From Cavenderia fasciculata (taxonomy: Eukaryota > Evosea > Eumycetozoa > Acytosteliales > Cavenderiaceae): a DNA stretch of 64,000 nt. The notes below the pieces were generated by a model that was given only the letters and a program-made list of their open reading frames with translations, was not told the origin of the DNA and searched no databases. This document shows positions 2,656-60,500 of this stretch, piece by piece. The DNA is taken from positions 2,604,001 to 2,668,000 of the forward strand of contig NW_004457624.1 of the NCBI RefSeq assembly GCF_000203815.1. Direction: 5' to 3'. How positions within the stretch are numbered: position 1 is the first letter of the stretch; each line of letters starts with the position of its first letter. The translations under genes and the position numbers were made by a program.

Positions 2656-3504
2656 TTAATTGACAACTGTGAAAGTTGGATAATCATGACCAACTTTGAT
2701 AAATGAGAATGTGTAAGATTCATATACACCTAGAGATGGAGTAACTGGGGTGTATTTACCAGGAGACACAGTATTCATTCTCCACATTGTAGTTGCATCT
2801 TTTAGTTGCATCGTCGATGCCAATACTAGATTGTTAATGATAACACCTCCATTATTTTTAATAGTTGTTTCCCATAGACTATATAAGATGTCTCCTTCAT
2901 TCCATGAGGTCTGTAGGGTAGTGGTGATTGATACTTTGGTCGTTGGAGATGTTGGATTTGGGAATGGAGTTCTAGGAGCATCACCACATTTTTCATCACC
3001 AACATCACTCGAATTTACATTGGATAGATGAAAGATAAATGATTTTGAATCAGTGTGACCTACTAGAATCTTGTCCTTGCAATAGGTTAGATTGAAATCA
3101 AATTGTTTTTGTTCAATAGCCAAATTGAGTAGGACCGATCCATCTCTACGGATAACAAATGATTGACTATCATAGAACAATGGACGTACACCTGCAACAT
3201 CGAATGTCTGGACCAGGTCTTCTCCATTGGTTGTACCGACACAGTTGGTAGAGTTACTAAAGATGGCTTTGAAACCGATGGCAGCCATGATCTTGTCTGG
3301 GTATTGTTGACAACAAGAGAGAGATCTTCCTCTTGAAAAAGTGACCGATCCCGATTGATCAACGATTGTTATTTGAATGCCAACATACGGTGAACCAAGT
3401 CCAATATATTTATTAATAATTTCAGCACATTCTGGAAGATATGTTGAATTGATTGAATATAGATTTAAAACTACTAAAGTAATAAATATGATTGATGTTT
3501 TCAT
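2656..3504 (-). CDS. Secreted CBM49 cellulose-binding domain protein (copy 2)
   Basis: Single-exon gene of 282 aa, tandem paralogue of the 950-1810 gene in the same orientation. It has a signal peptide (residues 1-20), the same unrecognised N-terminal domain with the LSCCQQYPD motif and LTYCKDKILVGHTDS block, and a C-terminal CBM49 domain whose IINNLVLAS...MWRMNTVSPGKYTP stretch is identical in both copies. The N-terminal domain has diverged more than the CBM49 domain, suggesting purifying selection on carbohydrate binding or gene conversion across the 3' halves. The likely role is cellulose binding in the extracellular matrix during development. Expression timing cannot be read from the sequence. 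Confidence 0.85.
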   Translation of the reverse strand: MKTSIIFITLVVLNLYSINSTYLPECAEIINKYIGLGSPYVGIQITIVDQSGSVTFSRGRSLSCCQQYPDKIMAAIGFKAIFSNSTNCVGTTNGEDLVQTFDVAGVRPLFYDSQSFVIRRDGSVLLNLAIEQKQFDFNLTYCKDKILVGHTDSKSFIFHLSNVNSSDVGDEKCGDAPRTPFPNPTSPTTKVSITTTLQTSWNEGDILYSLWETTIKNNGGVIINNLVLASTMQLKDATTMWRMNTVSPGKYTPVTPSLGVYESYTFSFIKVGHDYPTFTVVN

Positions 3505-40842: not shown

Positions 40843-42444
40843 TGTATGATGATCATATGATTCTCCCATAAACCTAAATATTAATCATATTTGACAGCAC
40901 ATCAAGCAAGAATAAGACAATACAATAATGTCGGGAAAGGTTGCGTGGTCCTATTTTCCAATTGCCTATGGGAGACGTCAAAACAGGTGAATAATGACGT
41001 CTTTAGAAGTTGAGTGGAACAACCGATCATACAAAATGTGCCTATCATTAGATCCTAGTCAACAACGAAATCCTTCGAACGTTGGAAATCGTGGTTGTGT
41101 AAAGAAAATGGTACTGAGCCAGGCTGGATTCACAGAGCAGCTAAAACATTTCGCTGGGATTGGAACGGTAGAATACACATTAAGATCGGCCACAAGACGA
41201 CTAGAGAAACAGTTAGACCCTGTCTTTTTTTATGCATGTTTTAAAGGACGCGGAGGAGGAGGCGAGGGGGTTTGGGAAGCCCCGGGAAAAAGCACGCAGC
41301 CAACAACACAACGATCTGTTAAATACCTAGGTGCTTGCGTGATTGTGCTTGCTTGGTTGGTTGCAGAAATGATTGATTGTTGGATGGTTGTTGGATGATT
41401 GTTGGTTGGATGGATGGATGGTTGTTGGTTGTTGGATGGATTGTTGGCTGGTTGGATGGATGGTTAATTGTTGGATGGATGATTGTTGGGTGGATGATTG
41501 TTGGATGGTTGGATTGCTAAAGCTAGCATAGAAATGGTCATTAAAAAATTGAATTATTTGGTTGCTGGTTGACTTGTTGATTGTTTGATTGTTGGTGGTT
41601 GTACCCTGTCAGCCGATTCGTGTATCGTGTCAACTGATTTGCGTCCTTGCCGTGGCACCACTTGAATTGTTTGTGTAATAATGTAATAATTACGACCGTC
41701 TTTGATTATATTTCTATATATTGATTATACTGTGAGTCCGAGAAAGGTGAAGATGTGGAGAAGTAAGTCTCTTTACAACCCAAACACATATGGCACCGAA
41801 AGGATTAATTGTCCAATTGGCCTGGCGACAACACAATACTCTTGTCTGTGTTGGAGATGGAGTTTAAAAAATATCAGTGATCGATCTGGGTTTGACACCC
41901 TAGATTGGGCGTTGGAGGACCAGACCACATAGAGTTGTGCATTTGATGTCCTAGAGTTGTGCAAGTACAATGTGAAATTGAATGCTCGCGACTGCTTGAT
42001 CTTTTAAAAGATATCAAAGTTTCATCCTAGTCCCAATGATTGGCAAGAGATGACAAGTTTGAAAGAAGGTATATGCAATATCAATTATTCTTTAAAAAAA
42101 AAAAATTAAATTAATTCATTAAGGATTAATAAAGTACAATATAGATAGATTTATACATACCAAAGTCAACCTTGAAAGGCAAATGTAAGAGCTCTGTATT
42201 GTACGGAAGATGAAAGAGAGGGAGGGGTACGGTGATTGATTTATCGTGATGTCGCTCTTTTACACATTAGGTATAAAGCACTAGGAAATCAATACCATTT
42301 GGTAGAGATTGGGATTGTTCAAGCTGCTGAAATTGTTGCCCATTCTGTAACATTAATCTAAAATAAATAATAAATTTGGTTCGTATGATTAAAATAATTA
42401 CTATTATTATATATATATATATATTCATACCAAACAAAAAATAG
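40843..42444 (+). repeat. Left arm of a large inverted repeat
   Basis: About 1.6 kb that matches, in reverse complement, 43345-44808. Outer edge: GATGATCATATG...CCCATAAAC, then TTTGACAGCACATCAA; inner edge: TATTCATACCAAACAAAAAA. Most of the length is alignable by eye with scattered substitutions and several small indels; this arm has an extra stretch of about 30 bp near 41910-41940 and a longer GGATGG/TTGTTGG run. Open frames at 40994-41398 and about 41705-41932 have counterparts in the other arm, yet resemble no family I know. No terminal target duplication was identified. Confidence 0.9.
41370..41520 (+). repeat. GGATGGTTGTTGG-type minisatellite
   Basis: Irregular tandem array of TTGTTGGATGG and GGATGGATGG units inside the left arm. 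The right arm has a much shorter version (about 44240-44330), so the array has expanded or contracted since the arms were made. Confidence 0.8.
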
Positions 42445-42449
42445 AAAAA

Positions 42450-42590
42450 TAGAGGAGGAGGAAGAGGAGGTTGGGAAGCCCCGGAAAAAAGCACCCAACC
42501 AACATAATATTTTAAATACCGATGCTTGCATGGTTGATTGTAGAAATGATTGATTGTTGGATGATTGCTTGATTGTTGGTTGCTGGTGCT
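42450..42590 (+). repeat. Third, partial copy of the arm sequence in the spacer
   Basis: Contains GAGGAGG...TTGGGAAGCCCCGG, then AAAAGCAC and GAAATGATTGATTGTTGGAT, in the same order and orientation as left-arm positions of about 41251-41390. It starts within a few bases of the inner end of the left arm, and is more diverged from either arm than the arms are from each other. Confidence 0.75.
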
Positions 42591-42881
42591 GTTTCGTCCA
42601 TCAAAACGATCATCTGACAACCAACGGTATGGATTAAATACAGTTGGTTCTTTCCAATACTTTTCATCGTTGCATACACCAAGAGGTTCATGATCCTTTG
42701 GAATGATGTATTTATCCTTTACACATATATCTTCAGTGGCTCTCCGTGGTAGAGAAAGGGCATCAACTGGTCGAATACAGAGTGTCTCTTTCATACAAGC
42801 GTTAAAGAATGGTATACATTTCATAGGGTAGCGATGTTGTTTCAAGGTGACAGTGTCCGTTTGGCGCAAACCATTGGTCAA
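42591..42881 (-). pseudogene. Cytochrome P450 gene fragment
   Basis: On the minus strand, an open frame of about 97 codons carries P450 features: FNACMKETLCIRPV (the K-helix region), SLPRRATEDICVKDKYIIPKD (beta-sheet 1 segment) and DEKYWKEPTVFNPYRWLSDDRF (the PERF/W region). The K-helix E-x-x-R has Cys instead of Arg. Between IIPKD and the DEKYW segment about 10 residues seem lost, and the haem-binding Cys loop and the whole N-terminal half are missing. The remaining open frame to 42267 is read-through into repeat DNA. It is a dead fragment caught in the spacer of the inverted repeat. Confidence 0.75.
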
Positions 42882-43344
42882 TCGAAAGAGTTATTGAAGA
42901 TCTTCACTCTTTTTGATCTCTGTTAAAAACAAATCAACTAATAATGATGATCCTATATAATAATGATAAAAATAGGGTTTTTTGTTAAAGCTGTTACCCT
43001 TTTGGCTCTGCAAGAAAGAAATAAATTATTATTAATTAAAATTTTTTAGTTTTGATCATGGTTGCTACACTTGTCTCACTAGAGATCAGATAATAACACT
43101 CTAGTTTTATATATATATATTTATGTTGATTGATATATATATATAGCCTAGCTCTCACAATTGTTGCAGGAAATCAACAATTCGGTTTGCAGCGAGAGTA
43201 GGAGTTGTTTAAACTTTAAAGAGATGTATGCATGGCACTATAAATAATACAGAGTATCTAATCTAATCTCTATATTATTATAATTATATTTGTTAAATTT
43301 GCAAATACTTGGATGATCATTTCACTCCTCCTCCAAACGATGGT

Positions 43345-44808
43345 CTATTTTTTTGTTTGGTATGAATATATATATAGTAATTATTTTAATAATCATACTA
43401 ACCAAATTTATTATTTATTTTAGATTAATGTTACAGAATGGGCAACACATTTCAACAGCTTGAACAATCCCAATATCTACTATAGTCAATGCAAATTGAC
43501 CTAGTGGCATTGATTTCCTAGTGCTTTATACCTAATGTGTAAAAGAGCGACATCACGATAAATCAATCACCGTACCCCTCCCTCTCTTTCATCTTCCGTA
43601 CAATACAGAGCTCTTACATTTGCCTTTCAAGGTTGACTTTGGTATGTATAAATCTATCTATATTGTACTTTATTAATCCTTAATGAATTAATTTAATTTT
43701 TTTTTTTTAAAGAATAATTGATATTGCATATACCTTCTTTCAAACTTGTCATCTCTTGCCAATCATTGTGACTAGGAGGAAACTTTGATATCTTTTAAAA
43801 GATCAAGCAGTCGCTGGTATCCAATTTCACATTGTACTTGCACAACTCTAGGACATCAAATGCCCAATCTAGGGTGTCAAACCCAGATCGATCACTGATA
43901 TTTTTTAAACTCCAGCTCCAACACAGATAAGAGTATTGTGTTGTCGCCAGGCCAATTGGACAATTAATCCTTTCGGTGCCATATGTGTTTGGGTTGTAAA
44001 GAGACTTACTTCTCCACATCTTCACCTTTCTCGGACTCACAGTATAATCAAAGACGGTCGTAATTATTACACAAACAATGCATGTGGTGCCACGGCAAGG
44101 AAACAAATCAGTTGACAGGACACACGAATCATCTGACAGGGTACAACCACCAACAATCAAACAATCAACAAGTCAACCAGCAACCAAATAATTCAATTTT
44201 TTAATGACCATTTCTATGCTAGCTTTAGCAATCCAACCAACCAGCAACCAGTCAACAATCAATCATTTCTACAACCCCCAACAATCAAGCAACCATTCAA
44301 CAATCAACCATCCATCCAACCAAGCAAGCACTTAGGTATTTAACAGATTGTTGTGTTGTTGGTTGCGTGCTTTTTCCCGGGGCTTCCCAAACCCCCTCCA
44401 CCGGCGTCCTTTAAAACATGCAAAAAAAGACAGGGTCTAACTGTTTCTCTAGTCGTCTTGTGGCCGATCTTAATGTGTATTCTACCGTTCCAATCCCAGC
44501 GAAATGTTTTAGCTGCTCTGTGAATCCAGCCTGGCTCAGTACCATTTTCTTTACACAACCACGATTTCCAACGTTCGAAGGATTTCGTTGTTGACTAGGA
44601 TCTAATGATAGGCACATTTTGTATGATCGGTTGTTCCGCTCAACTTCTAAGGACGTCATTATTCACCTGTTTTGACGTCTCCCGTAGGCTTGGACAAGAG
44701 GACCACGCAACTTTTCCCGACATTATTGTGTTGTCTTATTCTTGATTGATGTGCTGTCAAATATGATCGATTTCCGAGTTTATGGGAATAGCATATGATC
44801 ATCTACAC
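43345..44808 (-). repeat. Right arm of the large inverted repeat
   Basis: Reverse-complement partner of 40843-42444, about 1.46 kb. It carries minus-strand frames corresponding to those in the left arm (44411-44659 and 43795-44160). The latter continues longer here than on the left and ends in LDTSDCLIF. The arms are separated by about 900 bp. Confidence 0.9.
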
Positions 44809-54035: not shown

Positions 54036-57000
54036 TTAATCAGTAAAAGAAAATACATCTTTCCCATTTGGATTTGATAATGGTTTTGTAACTCTTGGTC
54101 TACCTCTTGAAATCTTTCCTCTTAATGGTAATTGTATGGTGGCAGGTGTTGGAGCAGTTGTAGTAGAAGGATTGGTATTTGCACTGGTTGGACTATAAAC
54201 TGGTGGAGGTGGAGATGTTGGATCATTTGATGAAACCATAGTACTGGTAGTATTGATTGTTGATGGTGTTGTTAAAATTGGAGGTGGTGGTGAAGTTGGA
54301 TTGGAAATCATACTAATAGTTGGAACAATTGTATCTGCTGTTGTAATTATAGTATTGGTAATGGGAATGGGATTGAAATTATTGATATTATTAATATTGT
54401 TGGTTGAAATTTGAGTTAATTGATTTGATTCATGTAATAAACTTTGAGTAAATGATGGTGATCTATCACCCATTTCAGTTGATGAAAAATCAGATAATAT
54501 TGCTCTTCTTGTTTGTTCCTCACCCATTTTTGATTCTCTAGTTGATAAATCCTTTTCTCTTCTTTCCAAACCATTCTTTCTTTGTTCCAATTCCTCGGAT
54601 ATTGTTTGTACCACCTTATCTCTTTCAACAAATTCCATTTTAAATTGATTATAAACTTCTTCCAACTTTTCATATTGATTTGTTTTTTCCTATATAAAAA
54701 AAAGAATTATTATTTATGTCTTTTTTTTTTCCTCTTTTTTTACTTTACAGTAATCATTTTAGATTTTAATTCTCTATCTTTTGTTGAAGTTTCCAAATCA
54801 GATTCAAGTTTTGCAATTTTTGCCAATAGAGATTGTATTTTGTGATCCTTGTCACACATTTTGGTCAATAAAAGTGTTTGATCCTCTACCAATTGTCCCT
54901 TTTCATTTGAAATCTTTTTGTTTTCTTCAAATTGATTTCCTACTTCCTTTTCCAAATAAGATACTCTTGATGATAATGATTGAATTGATTCATTCAATTC
55001 AGTGTTGGTTTCAACCAATTGTTTTTCCTTTTCTTGTAAATCTTGATAATTATCTTTAATCACCAATAAATCGTTATTATCATTTTCAATAATCTCTATT
55101 CTTTTCTTTTTTCATTTAATTCTTTTTCAATTCTATAGAATAAATAAAAAAGTAAGTAAAGGATGATAAAATAAATGTATAAATGGTTTACTTCTTCTTC
55201 TTACAAATTAAAATTATTAATTAATTTTAAAATTTCTTGTTGATTAGATTCTGTTGTTTGTTGTAATTTAATTTCAATTTCAGATAAATGTTTGTTTGAT
55301 CCAGAAAGAGATTGTTCAGTATTTGTCAAATCTTTACAAAGTCTTGAGATTTCACCATCCTTTTCTCCAAGAACTGATTTTAAATTCAAGATTTCTTCAG
55401 ACATTGACATGTTGTGTTCATTCAATTGTGCATTCTTTGTTTTAAATTTATCAATCTCTCCCATTTTAATATTATAATCTTCTTGTAATGTTGATTTCTT
55501 TTTCATTAATGATTTTATATCACTTTCCAATGTATTATATTCTAATTTATGTTTTACTAAAAAAAAGAATAAAAAAAAATTAATCAATAATAAATAGAAT
55601 TATTAATATAGTTGACATACATAATTTATCATTAAATTCTTTTGTTTCACTTTCCATTAATAATTGCATAGCTTCAATTTCATCTTTTGATGTTTCTTCT
55701 TTTTCTTTATCTAGATAGAAATAAAATAATTAATAAAACTATAATTTGTAATCTATCTCTCTTTTCTACTTACAAGATTGAATTGATTTCTTTTGTAATA
55801 TTAAATCTTGTTGTAAACTTTCTGTAAGATTATTAATGGTATGAACATATTCTGTTATTTCTTGATAGTTTTTTTCAACCTTTTCAATCATTTGAACCAA
55901 TTCTACCTTTTTCTTTTGGGCATCATCAATATATTCAGAGGTGGATTTGGAAAGAATCTTGGTTGATCTTTGATCAAATTGAATAGAATTGAATTGAGTT
56001 TCTATATCATCGAATTTGATTTGTAATAAATGACGTTCATCTTGAATATTCTTGATCATTTCCTCTTTGGCATTGACATCCAACTCTAATGATTTAATTT
56101 GTTGTTCAAATATTTCATTTAATTGTATACTCTTTTGATAATTATCTTCAATATCATCTATATAAATAAAAGAAAGAGAGTTAATTTCAATATTGATATT
56201 AAATTTAAACTATTAGTTTCTTACCAAATATTCTTAAAAGATTTGTAAATGATTTTTGAGGATAATCTACATCAGAATCAGTTGTAGTGTTGTTGGCTTG
56301 TGAAGATAAATAATCACCTTCAGATTCATAAGATAAATCAATGGAATTGATAGTTGAAGGTGTACCAATACTCTGTTGTTGTTGTTGTGCAGCAATAGAT
56401 TGTTTGATATTTGGAGTTGGTGGTGCTGAAGGTGAAGCAGAAGATTGACCAGACGTGGTAGAATGATGATCAAATATAGGTCTAATCAATGATGGCTTTG
56501 ATTGAATTTGAGTTGGTTGTTGTTGAACCAATATTGGTGATGGAGGTTGTTGTCTAGAGACATTCACATTGTTGTTTGTATTGTTGTTTGATGACGACAA
56601 TGATGAAGCATAAAACCCAGTATTTAAATCCTTTTGAAATGAAGTTTCATCAAATATTTGAGAAAATTTGTTTGATTGTCTATTTGTATTATTTTGTTGT
56701 TGTTGGATTGGTTGTTTAATAGGTGAATTTTTTTTATTGTTTTGTTGTAACAAGTTGGATGAAGAAGAAGTATTATTAACATTATTATTATTATTGGTTC
56801 TATTTTCAAGAAAATTAAATAAATTAGTTGGTTTATTAATGGTTGGCTTTTCAGATGTTGTAGAAGAAGAAATATTAGAAGTCTTTTGATTAAATGAATT
56901 ATTATTTTGATGTTGCAATGAAAAGTCTGGTGATATTTTTGATGGTAGATTTGGTTTTAAATGTAAATCATTAAGTGATAAGTTAATATTACTATTACTA

Positions 57001-57089
57001 TTATTATTTTTCTGTTGTTGTTGATCATTATTATGTTTGGGAGCAAAATTCATAAAAAAAGGGAATAAATTGTTATTCTGTTTGTCCAT
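54036..57089 (-). CDS. Long coiled-coil protein, unknown
   Basis: About six exons on the minus strand: 56225-57089, 55774-56157, 55621-55710, 55205-55556, 54749-55100 and 54036-54689; about 898 aa. Residues 1-280 are disordered (Asn, Gln, Ser, Thr). Residues about 290-745 form an almost unbroken coiled coil. The tail is Pro/Thr/Ser-rich and ends with a conserved-looking RGKISRGRPRVTKPLSNP segment (AT-hook-like GRPR) and GKDVFSFTD. The AT-hook-like motif hints at DNA or chromatin association; no family is recognised. At about 55100-55125 the acceptor is ambiguous: the sequence just upstream also looks coding but in another frame, so the exon start there is provisional. Confidence 0.7.
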
Positions 57090-57301
57090 TCCTATCTCTA
57101 TGTATTTTTCACTAAAATCATATTCATAACTTATGATTCAAAACACACAAAAGGGTAGGTCTGATGGTTTGACTATCTTTTTTATATTCCAATAAACTAA
57201 TTAATTAATTTTACCTAGAATAATAAAAATATAAAACTAATGATCCATCATCATCAGGTTGGTATATAAATTAGGTGTTTTTTATTTTATTATGTCGAGT
57301 T

Positions 57302-57539
57302 TTATTTTGTGTGAGCTCCATTTACAAATACAGGTATACTTGAGACCATGCCATTTCCATTATTATTATTATTATTATTATCTTGTTGTTTGTTAAATTG
57401 TTGTTGTTGTTGTGATTGATAGGGAGATGTTACTTCGTTACTATTGTTATTGTTATTGTTATTATTATTATTGTGAAATATTGGTGATGTAGTTTGTTGA
57501 TCTTTAAAAAAGGTTAGATTAGTATTGCCTATATTACTA

Positions 57540-57574
<35 letters not shown>

Positions 57575-60500
57575 GTATTGTTGTTGTTGTTGTTGTTGTA
57601 TACTCTCATTATTATTATTATTTATCATCCCATTATGATTATTATTATTATTATTATTTTCATGATTATTATTATTATTTTCAAAAGTATTATTACTGTA
57701 TTGTGGTGGTTGCTGTGTTATTTGTTGTGTTGATTGTGTTGGTTGTAAATGTTGTAAATTCATAGCCATTGGAGGAGGTGGCGAAGTGATTGTAGTTAGG
57801 GTCGGAGTACTTGGCATTGCGCTGCTGGATGATTGGGGTGATGGCGAGGCAGCAATGACCGGAGTAGTATTGTTTGGTGATATTTTTGGTTGTTGCATTG
57901 GAGGTGGTGATTGGAGTTGAAGTTGTTGTGGTGGGGCTTGGAATTGTTGGTGAACCAATATAGGCATTGCCGGTGGTGGCGATGTTAGAATAGGTGTTCC
58001 ATTTGGAGATCTCATTTGTTGCATTCCTCCAATTGGTGATTGCATTGTATTTTGTTGTTGTTGTTGTTGTTGCAACTGTTGTTGTTGTTGTTGTTGTTGT
58101 TGCTGTTGTTGAGCTTGTTGTTGGGCGTGTAACTGAGCTTGTTGCTGTTGTTGTTGTTGTTGTTGTTGGAAATGTTGTAAATGTATTTTAAATACACCTA
58201 CTTCATTTTGAATCAATCGATCAAGGATACAAAAATCCTCCTTGTAAAGATTGTCCTCTTTTAATTGATTCTCTGATATTTTATAAATGTTCTTGAATAG
58301 TCTATCTACAGTATTAAAAGTTTCTATTTTTAATTTTTTACATTTCTCTTCAGAAACTAAATAAATAAATAAATAGTACAAACATTAATATTATAAATTA
58401 TTATTATTGATTATTACTAATACATACCGATTGATGATTCAAGTTCTGAAAATATTTGAAAACAACTTAATCTCTTTTTTAAATCCTCGATTGATTGAAA
58501 TGGAGTTTTGTAATCTGGTTCAGTTGCCAACTTTCTTTCAACCATTGCTTCATTAAACTTTTTCTTGAATGCCTCTAGTTCACTCTTTCTCTTCTTGTCA
58601 CTCTTTCGTTTTTTCTTCTTTTCACTCTCTTCTGATGCTTGTTGAGCTGCTTGTTGAGCTTGTGCTTGTGCCTGTGCTTGCGCTTGTGCTTGAGCCTGTG
58701 CCTGTGCCTGTGCTTGTTGTTGAGCTTGTTGTTGAGCTTGTGCCTGTGCCTGTGCTTGTTGTTGTTGTTGTTGTTGTTGTGCCTGTTGTTGTGCTTGTAA
58801 TTGTAATTGTTGCTGTTGTTGTTGTTGATGGAATTGTTGTGCATGTAATTGTTGCTGTTGTTGTTGAGCTTGTTGCTGTTGTGCTTGTAATTGTTGTAAT
58901 TGTTGTTGTTGATGTAATTGTTGTTGAATAAGTAATTGTTGTTGTTGTTGAGTCAATTGAGCTCCTTGGGCAGTCATCAAAGGTACAGATTGTAAAGGTG
59001 TTCCAACATTATTACCATTACTATTGGGAAGTTGTTGAATCGGATAAGGTTTGGGTTGATATTGAGAGGTGGCAGTCGTAGCAGTAGAAACAGATGTTTG
59101 TGGATTAGTTTGAAATGTCATTGGTTGTTGTTGTTGATTGGTGGAAGCTGTCACCGGTGAAGATATTTGTTGTTGTTGTTGTTGATTCGTTCCTTGGGTC
59201 AGAGATGTTGGCAATGGTAGTGATGTTGGTGCCTGTGTAATTGTGTTTGGTTGTTGTTGTTGTTGTTTAAAAATCTGCTGTTGTTGTTGTTGATGTTGTT
59301 GTTGTTGCGCTTGTTGTTGCTGTTGTTGAGCTATCAAACTATACAAATGCATTTGACTTGGTGTGGTACCATATTGTTGAGGATAGGCTGAAAATTGATT
59401 GGGATTGAGTGACGCTGGGATTTGGGTCGGTTGGTATAATTGGAGTTGTGGAGGCAGTGTTTGTGCACCTGGCATTTGGTATTGAGGGGGTTGCGCAGTC
59501 ATCCGTTGCTGTGTTAGCTGTGCCTGTTGTTGTTGAGCCTGTTGTAATTGTAATTGCAATTTCTGTTGTTGATTCAATTGAGCCTGTTGATTCAATTGTG
59601 CTTGTTGATTCAATTGTGCCTGTTGTTGTTGTTGTTGTTGCTGTTGTTGTAAATGTTGTTGTTGAAATTGTGGCATGCTTGCAACAAGCTGTGGTATAGT
59701 ATGTACGGGAGAAATACCGGCTGGCTGAGGCTGAGCGGTTGGCTGCTGTTGTTGTTGTTGCTGGGGTAGAGGAAGAGGTGGGGGAGGTTGAGTGATAGTT
59801 TGAGGTGGCTTATTTACAACGGATTGTTGAGCTTGTTGCTGAGGCGTTTGTGGCTGTTGGATGGGTGTGTTTGGCTGTTGCAGCTGCGGTGTAGTTGGGG
59901 TTTGCGGATTATTTAAAAAGGGTGTCGAGTAGGCCTGAGGTGGTTGTGGGGTTTGAGGCTGTTGCTGACTCGGAGTATATACTTGAGCTGGTGATACGTG
60001 CGGCATCGGTGTCGAAGGACTAGTATGTTGTGGTCCAATCATAGGAGAGTGCATATTTTGATTTGGTGTATTTATAGATTGTTGTTGTTGTTGATGATTT
60101 ATGCCCGGCGATGGGTTTGGTGAAATGTGATGTTGTGGTGGAGGTGATACCATGTTTTGATGAGGATGATATGGTGATCCTTGAATTGCCACTGATCCCA
60201 TTTGTTGTTGAGAATTATTATAATATTGTTGTTGTTGAGGTTGAGGTTGTTGTTGCTGCTGCTGCTGAGCAATTGGTGATGAAGTCTAAATAGTTTAAAA
60301 AAAAAAAAAAAGATAAATGGTTAGCTACTTCTAAACTTTAGAATACACTCGATAGTGATATATCTATCAATCCATAACTTACATGATATTGTTGTTGCTG
60401 TTGTGGTTGTTGTTGTTGTTGTTGTTGTAGAGATTGATCATCTTTTGGACCATCCATTGAATTACTTCTATTTGATATGTTATTGTTATTACCATTGTTT

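Follow-up and report, generated by a model that had tools for sequence, protein, structure and literature searches.

Two facing SRP RNA genes in a 4-kb inverted repeat of Cavenderia fasciculata

Introduction

In the genome of the group 1 dictyostelid Cavenderia (Dictyostelium) fasciculata, two long stretches of DNA match each other in reverse complement around a shorter spacer. Is such a structure a mobile element, a source of hairpin RNA, a pair of protein genes or a plain duplication? We consider it very probable, from the sequence comparisons reported here, that the repeat is a local inverted duplication of a signal recognition particle (SRP, 7SL) RNA locus, partly homogenised by conversion. 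It looks like an ordinary pair of housekeeping RNA genes and not like a transposon or a new protein gene. An apparent mystery element would in this way become annotation, locating two SRP RNA genes that seem to be the only ones in the genome; the locus, otherwise ordinary, would also serve as a small test case in which inverted copies of an essential RNA gene convert each other.

Geometry of the inverted repeat

A sequence-only reading of the window (the whole 64,000-nucleotide stretch analysed here, with a G+C content of 32.8%) had described a four-kilobase inverted repeat with 1.5-kb arms and a 0.9-kb spacer, and self-alignment confirmed this description. The parts of the repeat are as follows:

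40848..42445, + strand, left arm of the inverted repeat (self-alignment and arm-to-arm alignment)
43344..44803, - strand, right arm, whose minus-strand reading matches the left arm
42446-43343, spacer between the arms, 898 nt
41346..41515, no strand, TTGG/TTGA-rich low-complexity tract, which holds all 37 arm matches elsewhere in the genome

The self-alignment pairs 40843-41431 with 44807-44229 (89%) and 41425-42445 with 44327-43344 (87%, gaps counted), and no other inverted matches at E below 1e-20 were found when the 64-kb window was compared with itself. Aligned arm to arm, the two copies are 94.7% identical over 1438 columns, with 76 substitutions and 12 internal indels. When the TTGG-rich tract at 41346-41515 is excluded, 52 substitutions are left in 1344 columns (96.1% identity).

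Elsewhere in the window, the self-comparison revealed a direct duplication of about 850 nt (950-1791 and 2656-3497, 82% identity). GC skew is strong at 56001-60000 (+0.38 and +0.39 in 2-kb steps); its absolute value does not exceed 0.21 anywhere else in the window.

SRP RNA genes at the outer ends of the arms

The outer ends of the repeat carry two SRP RNA genes, one per arm, which face each other and end in runs of T about 3.2 kb apart:

40930..41228, + strand, SRP (7SL) RNA gene, left copy (RF00017 positions 1-299 of 299, 95.2 bits)
44425..44721, - strand, SRP (7SL) RNA gene, right copy (RF00017 positions 1-299 of 299, 89.8 bits)
41225..41231, + strand, seven T in a row where the left copy ends, probably a polymerase III terminator
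44422..44428, - strand, seven T in a row where the right copy ends, probably a polymerase III terminator

Like eukaryotic SRP (7SL) RNA genes in general, both arms give a match that covers the whole of Rfam model RF00017 and exceeds its gathering score of 70 bits; unlike them, the genes form two facing copies within a 1.5-kb inverted repeat. The match spans 5' hairpins that we take to be of the Alu type and a stretch around CCAGG...AGCAG that presumably belongs to the S domain. A search of the 31.0-Mb genome (21 contigs) with RF00017, in which 26 of 102 first-look candidates were scored, yielded two matches, both in this repeat. The fold of the left copy is modestly better than that of its shuffles (z of -1.83, with 10 of 200 shuffles equally good or better). 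A B-box-like pattern was found in neither gene. Both genes are probably transcribed by RNA polymerase III, and the facing pair would supply the cell's SRP RNA.

No description of this SRP RNA gene pair was found in the literature searched, which was mostly open-access and covered by its best-ranked matches. In the accessible part of PMC6161686, the SRP RNAs of D. discoideum are mentioned solely in a small-RNA tally.

Open frames and further RNA candidates in the arms

The same reading had noted open frames that are kept in both copies and match nothing recognised, which holds in part. The frames at the outer ends fall in the noncoding SRP RNA gene. The 121-aa frame LKNISDRSGFDTLDWAF of the right arm is inner-arm sequence, for which the genome search found the two arms and no other match; it has no Pfam match and is broken in the left arm by four stops (one TGA, one TAG and two TAA). 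Three of the 41 stop-to-stop frames of at least 45 aa in the repeat were scanned against Pfam, namely two arm frames and a P450 frame in the spacer. A protein-coding reading of the arms was rejected, the two arm frames remaining unmatched even at an E threshold of 1. Of the 12 internal indels between the arms, those of 18, 30 and 9 nt are divisible by three, and the other nine (2, 2, 7, 65, 8, 19, 20, 1 and 1 nt) are not.

Nor is a further RNA gene claimed for the inner arm. The fold scan used 150-nt windows on both strands, from 40930 in steps of 60 and with 60 shuffles each. About 50 windows were tested, and z fell below -2 at 41410-41559 minus (-2.11), 42070-42219 plus (-2.77) and 42130-42279 plus (-3.33); the last two lie in the difference-free inner stretch, for which the advantage over shuffles was not clear in a second analysis, refolding of 42150-42275 plus giving a z of -1.58. 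All other Rfam matches within the repeat lie below their own gathering scores.

The upstream element of the SRP RNA genes

Each SRP RNA gene is preceded at the same distance by the upstream element known from dictyostelid small-RNA genes as DUSE:

40864..40871, + strand, DUSE TCCCATAA of the left SRP RNA gene, at -66, exact WCCCATAA
44780..44787, - strand, DUSE TCCCATAA of the right SRP RNA gene, at -66, exact WCCCATAA

According to PMC3188802, the DUSE of D. discoideum and D. purpureum reads [AT]CCCA[AT]AA and lies about 63 bp upstream. In PMC7919456, 73 of 126 Class I RNA candidates are described as having a DUSE-like motif about 60 nt upstream, in every dictyostelid searched there, and a three-C form of the element is given for groups 1 and 4. 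Both SRP RNA copies carry [AT]CCCA[AT]AA about 60 nt upstream. They resemble the dictyostelid DUSE small-RNA genes (Class I RNAs and snRNAs), as these are presented in PMC3188802 and PMC7919456, in having the element at about -60 to -66 and in occurring as nearby pairs.

Exact WCCCATAA occurs four times on the two strands of the window, two of these being the SRP elements. The background was eight occurrences per 185,462 strand positions in ten stretches including the window, and the SRP elements account for two of the eight. The models for SRP, U1, U2, U4, U5 and U6 found 21 loci in the genome, among them matches below the Rfam cut-off (every U1, one U6 and one U4). Nine of the 21 have the exact element within 200 nt upstream and 12 do not:

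SRP: element in 2 of 2, at -66
U2: element in 2 of 7, at -61
U1: element in 2 of 5, at -63
U6: element in 1 of 2, at -66
U5: element in 2 of 2, at -92 from the model start
U4: exact element in 0 of 3; by eye, 8-mers one mismatch off (TCCCATGA twice, ATCCATAA once)

The U1, U2, U5 and U6 matches together have the exact element in seven of 16 cases. In the repeat itself, the left arm has its outer limit 16 nt ahead of the promoter-like element, and comparison of the arms shows a weak footprint of the DUSE (P about 0.07).

A separate observation concerns the snRNA genes. Eight U1 and U2 matches lack the exact DUSE (five U2 and three U1, the latter scoring under the Rfam cut-off), and TATAAATA stands upstream of every one of them; judged by eye, it lies at about -34 in U1 and between about -61 and -65 in U2. 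The distribution is as if the genome had two classes of snRNA-gene promoter.

Patchy identity between the arms

Differences between the arms are unevenly spread. The substitutions per aligned column, from the outer end inward, and the longest substitution-free run are:

upstream, 12/82
RNA 5' (Alu-domain) part, 6/88, with a 2-nt indel in addition
rest of the RNA, 0/209
just downstream of the RNA, 6/101
TTGG tract, 24/94
successive segments inward of the TTGG tract, 8/178, 8/284, 1/262 and 11/140
42034..42293, no strand, longest substitution-free run, 260 columns, probably a recent conversion tract

The shuffle mean for the longest run in the 1344 columns was 112.5, and 3 of 5000 shuffles reached 260 (substitutions counted, indels left out). 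The observed run includes a run of 12 A that is equal in length in both arms. Identity between the arms is patchy, with long difference-free tracts that extend to sequence of no known function, as expected of arm-to-arm conversion. We infer gene conversion between the arms as the simplest explanation of this pattern, although the difference-free stretch could be the product of an undiscovered function instead. The SRP RNA locus would have been duplicated locally in inverted orientation, and the arms would have been kept partly alike by conversion between them.

Divergence in the Alu domain is no less than in the surrounding arm, and for this reason one SRP RNA copy may be decaying. Read in this way, the locus would consist of one working gene and one decaying copy, conversion would not be continuing, and the difference-free stretches would be due to chance or selection. 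The six differences and the indel in the 5' part point in this direction. However, both copies match the model end to end above the gathering score, with the element at equal distance, and the other 209 RNA columns are free of substitutions, and we regard a decaying copy as unlikely, though as an alternative of some weight. Rather improbable, in our estimation, is a stronger form of the conversion reading, in which selection keeps the inverted arrangement as a conversion device and the facing arms continually correct both SRP RNA genes. If this were true, the same arrangement would be expected in related dictyostelids, even with changed intergenic sequence.

Long inverted repeats with facing paralogous genes have been described in Caenorhabditis (Zhao et al., 2007; PMC1803023), and gene conversion is put forward, in the part of that paper available, as one mechanism that maintains them. 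The repeat described here resembles them, as they appear in that part, in having convergent homologous genes together with intergenic sequence in long arms. It differs from them in that the genes are RNA genes, in the lineage, and in an arm identity below the 99.7% given there for one locus.

The geometry would also suit a long hairpin RNA locus processed by RNA interference, since read-through of either gene would give a self-complementary RNA. Yet a T run ends each RNA gene ahead of the inner arm, and the outer arms are explained by a housekeeping RNA gene; from these features a hairpin locus appears very improbable.

The spacer and the search for transposon features

The spacer contains two recognisable stretches:

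42584..42975, - strand, decayed cytochrome P450 fragment in two pieces (PF00067, profile 319-394 of 462)
42452..42586, + strand, part of the sequence that immediately follows the SRP RNA gene, present here as a third, diverged copy in direct orientation

Both P450 pieces match a P450 gene about 60 kb away (contig C21, 2706480-2706985), with 85% for the larger and 78% for the smaller piece. About 116 nt of the related gene are absent between the two pieces, and at the matching place this gene has a 241-aa open frame without stops. The spacer piece stops short of what we take to be the heme-binding region and reads ETLC where the relative has ETLR, presumably part of a conserved motif. Judged by these comparisons, the P450 sequence of the spacer is a decayed fragment. 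Apart from these two pieces, the repeat and the P450 neighbourhood share one weak 32-nt match, and an 84-nt AT-rich match to that neighbourhood lies outside the repeat. Neither the P450 neighbourhood nor C21:2674-2683 kb has an Rfam match above gathering score. The diverged direct copy at 42452-42586 suggests that more than one local copying event took place at the locus.

Long inverted arms flanking a spacer with a gene fragment are also what a foldback or long-TIR transposon that had captured SRP RNA and P450 sequence would present, and a foldback transposon was among the options of the sequence-only reading. Its option of an inverted duplication fits the data; the foldback transposon found no support in the genome search or in the ends of the repeat. 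With 40843-42400 as query, the genome gave 41 places: three in arms, one in the partial copy of the spacer and 37 in the TTGG-rich query positions 512-672. The inner arm (41520-42400) matched the two arms alone. Dispersed arm copies outside the TTGG tract were not found within the sensitivity of this search; it passes over simple repeats and very frequent words and scores the top candidates only, and the absence of other copies is therefore not proven. The longest direct match between the 40-nt stretches at both ends is 7 nt (ACAACAT), a length reached or exceeded in 12% of 2000 control pairs, and the three scanned frames have no transposase match. Taken together, we consider a transposon highly unlikely. 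An assembly artefact is no more credible, since the similarity stops at either outer end and the arms, set apart by 76 substitutions and 12 internal indels, are not a single locus assembled twice.

Other small-RNA gene pairs in the genome

A local duplication of the SRP RNA locus would have company in this genome, in which snRNA genes also occur as nearby pairs on the same contig:

U1: C7, 32 kb apart; C1, 3.3 kb apart
U2: C12, 14 kb apart; C3, 8.4 kb apart
U4: C21, 1.9 kb apart
U5: C7, 16 kb apart
U6: C12, 3.2 kb apart (second match weak)

Three of the seven pairs (one U1, one U5 and one U6) are direct and the other four inverted. Matches without a nearby partner are U2 on C1 and C5, a third U1 (C1), a third U2 (C3) and U4 on C3. 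Close pairs of snRNA genes are also frequent in D. discoideum, according to the accessible text of PMC7919456. The main stretch shared within the seven snRNA pairs measures 102-552 nt at 93-100% identity, whereas the SRP pair shares about 1.5 kb; the SRP pair thus belongs to a wider set, in which the length of its arms is unusual.

The two U6 matches lie at C12:1211512-1211619 and C12:1214667-1214764. The second, about 3 kb from the first, scores 32.7 bits, below the cut-off, and has no exact DUSE upstream. It is identical to the first over 102 nt, starting about 34 nt inside, and differs in its 5' part; it may be a truncated copy.
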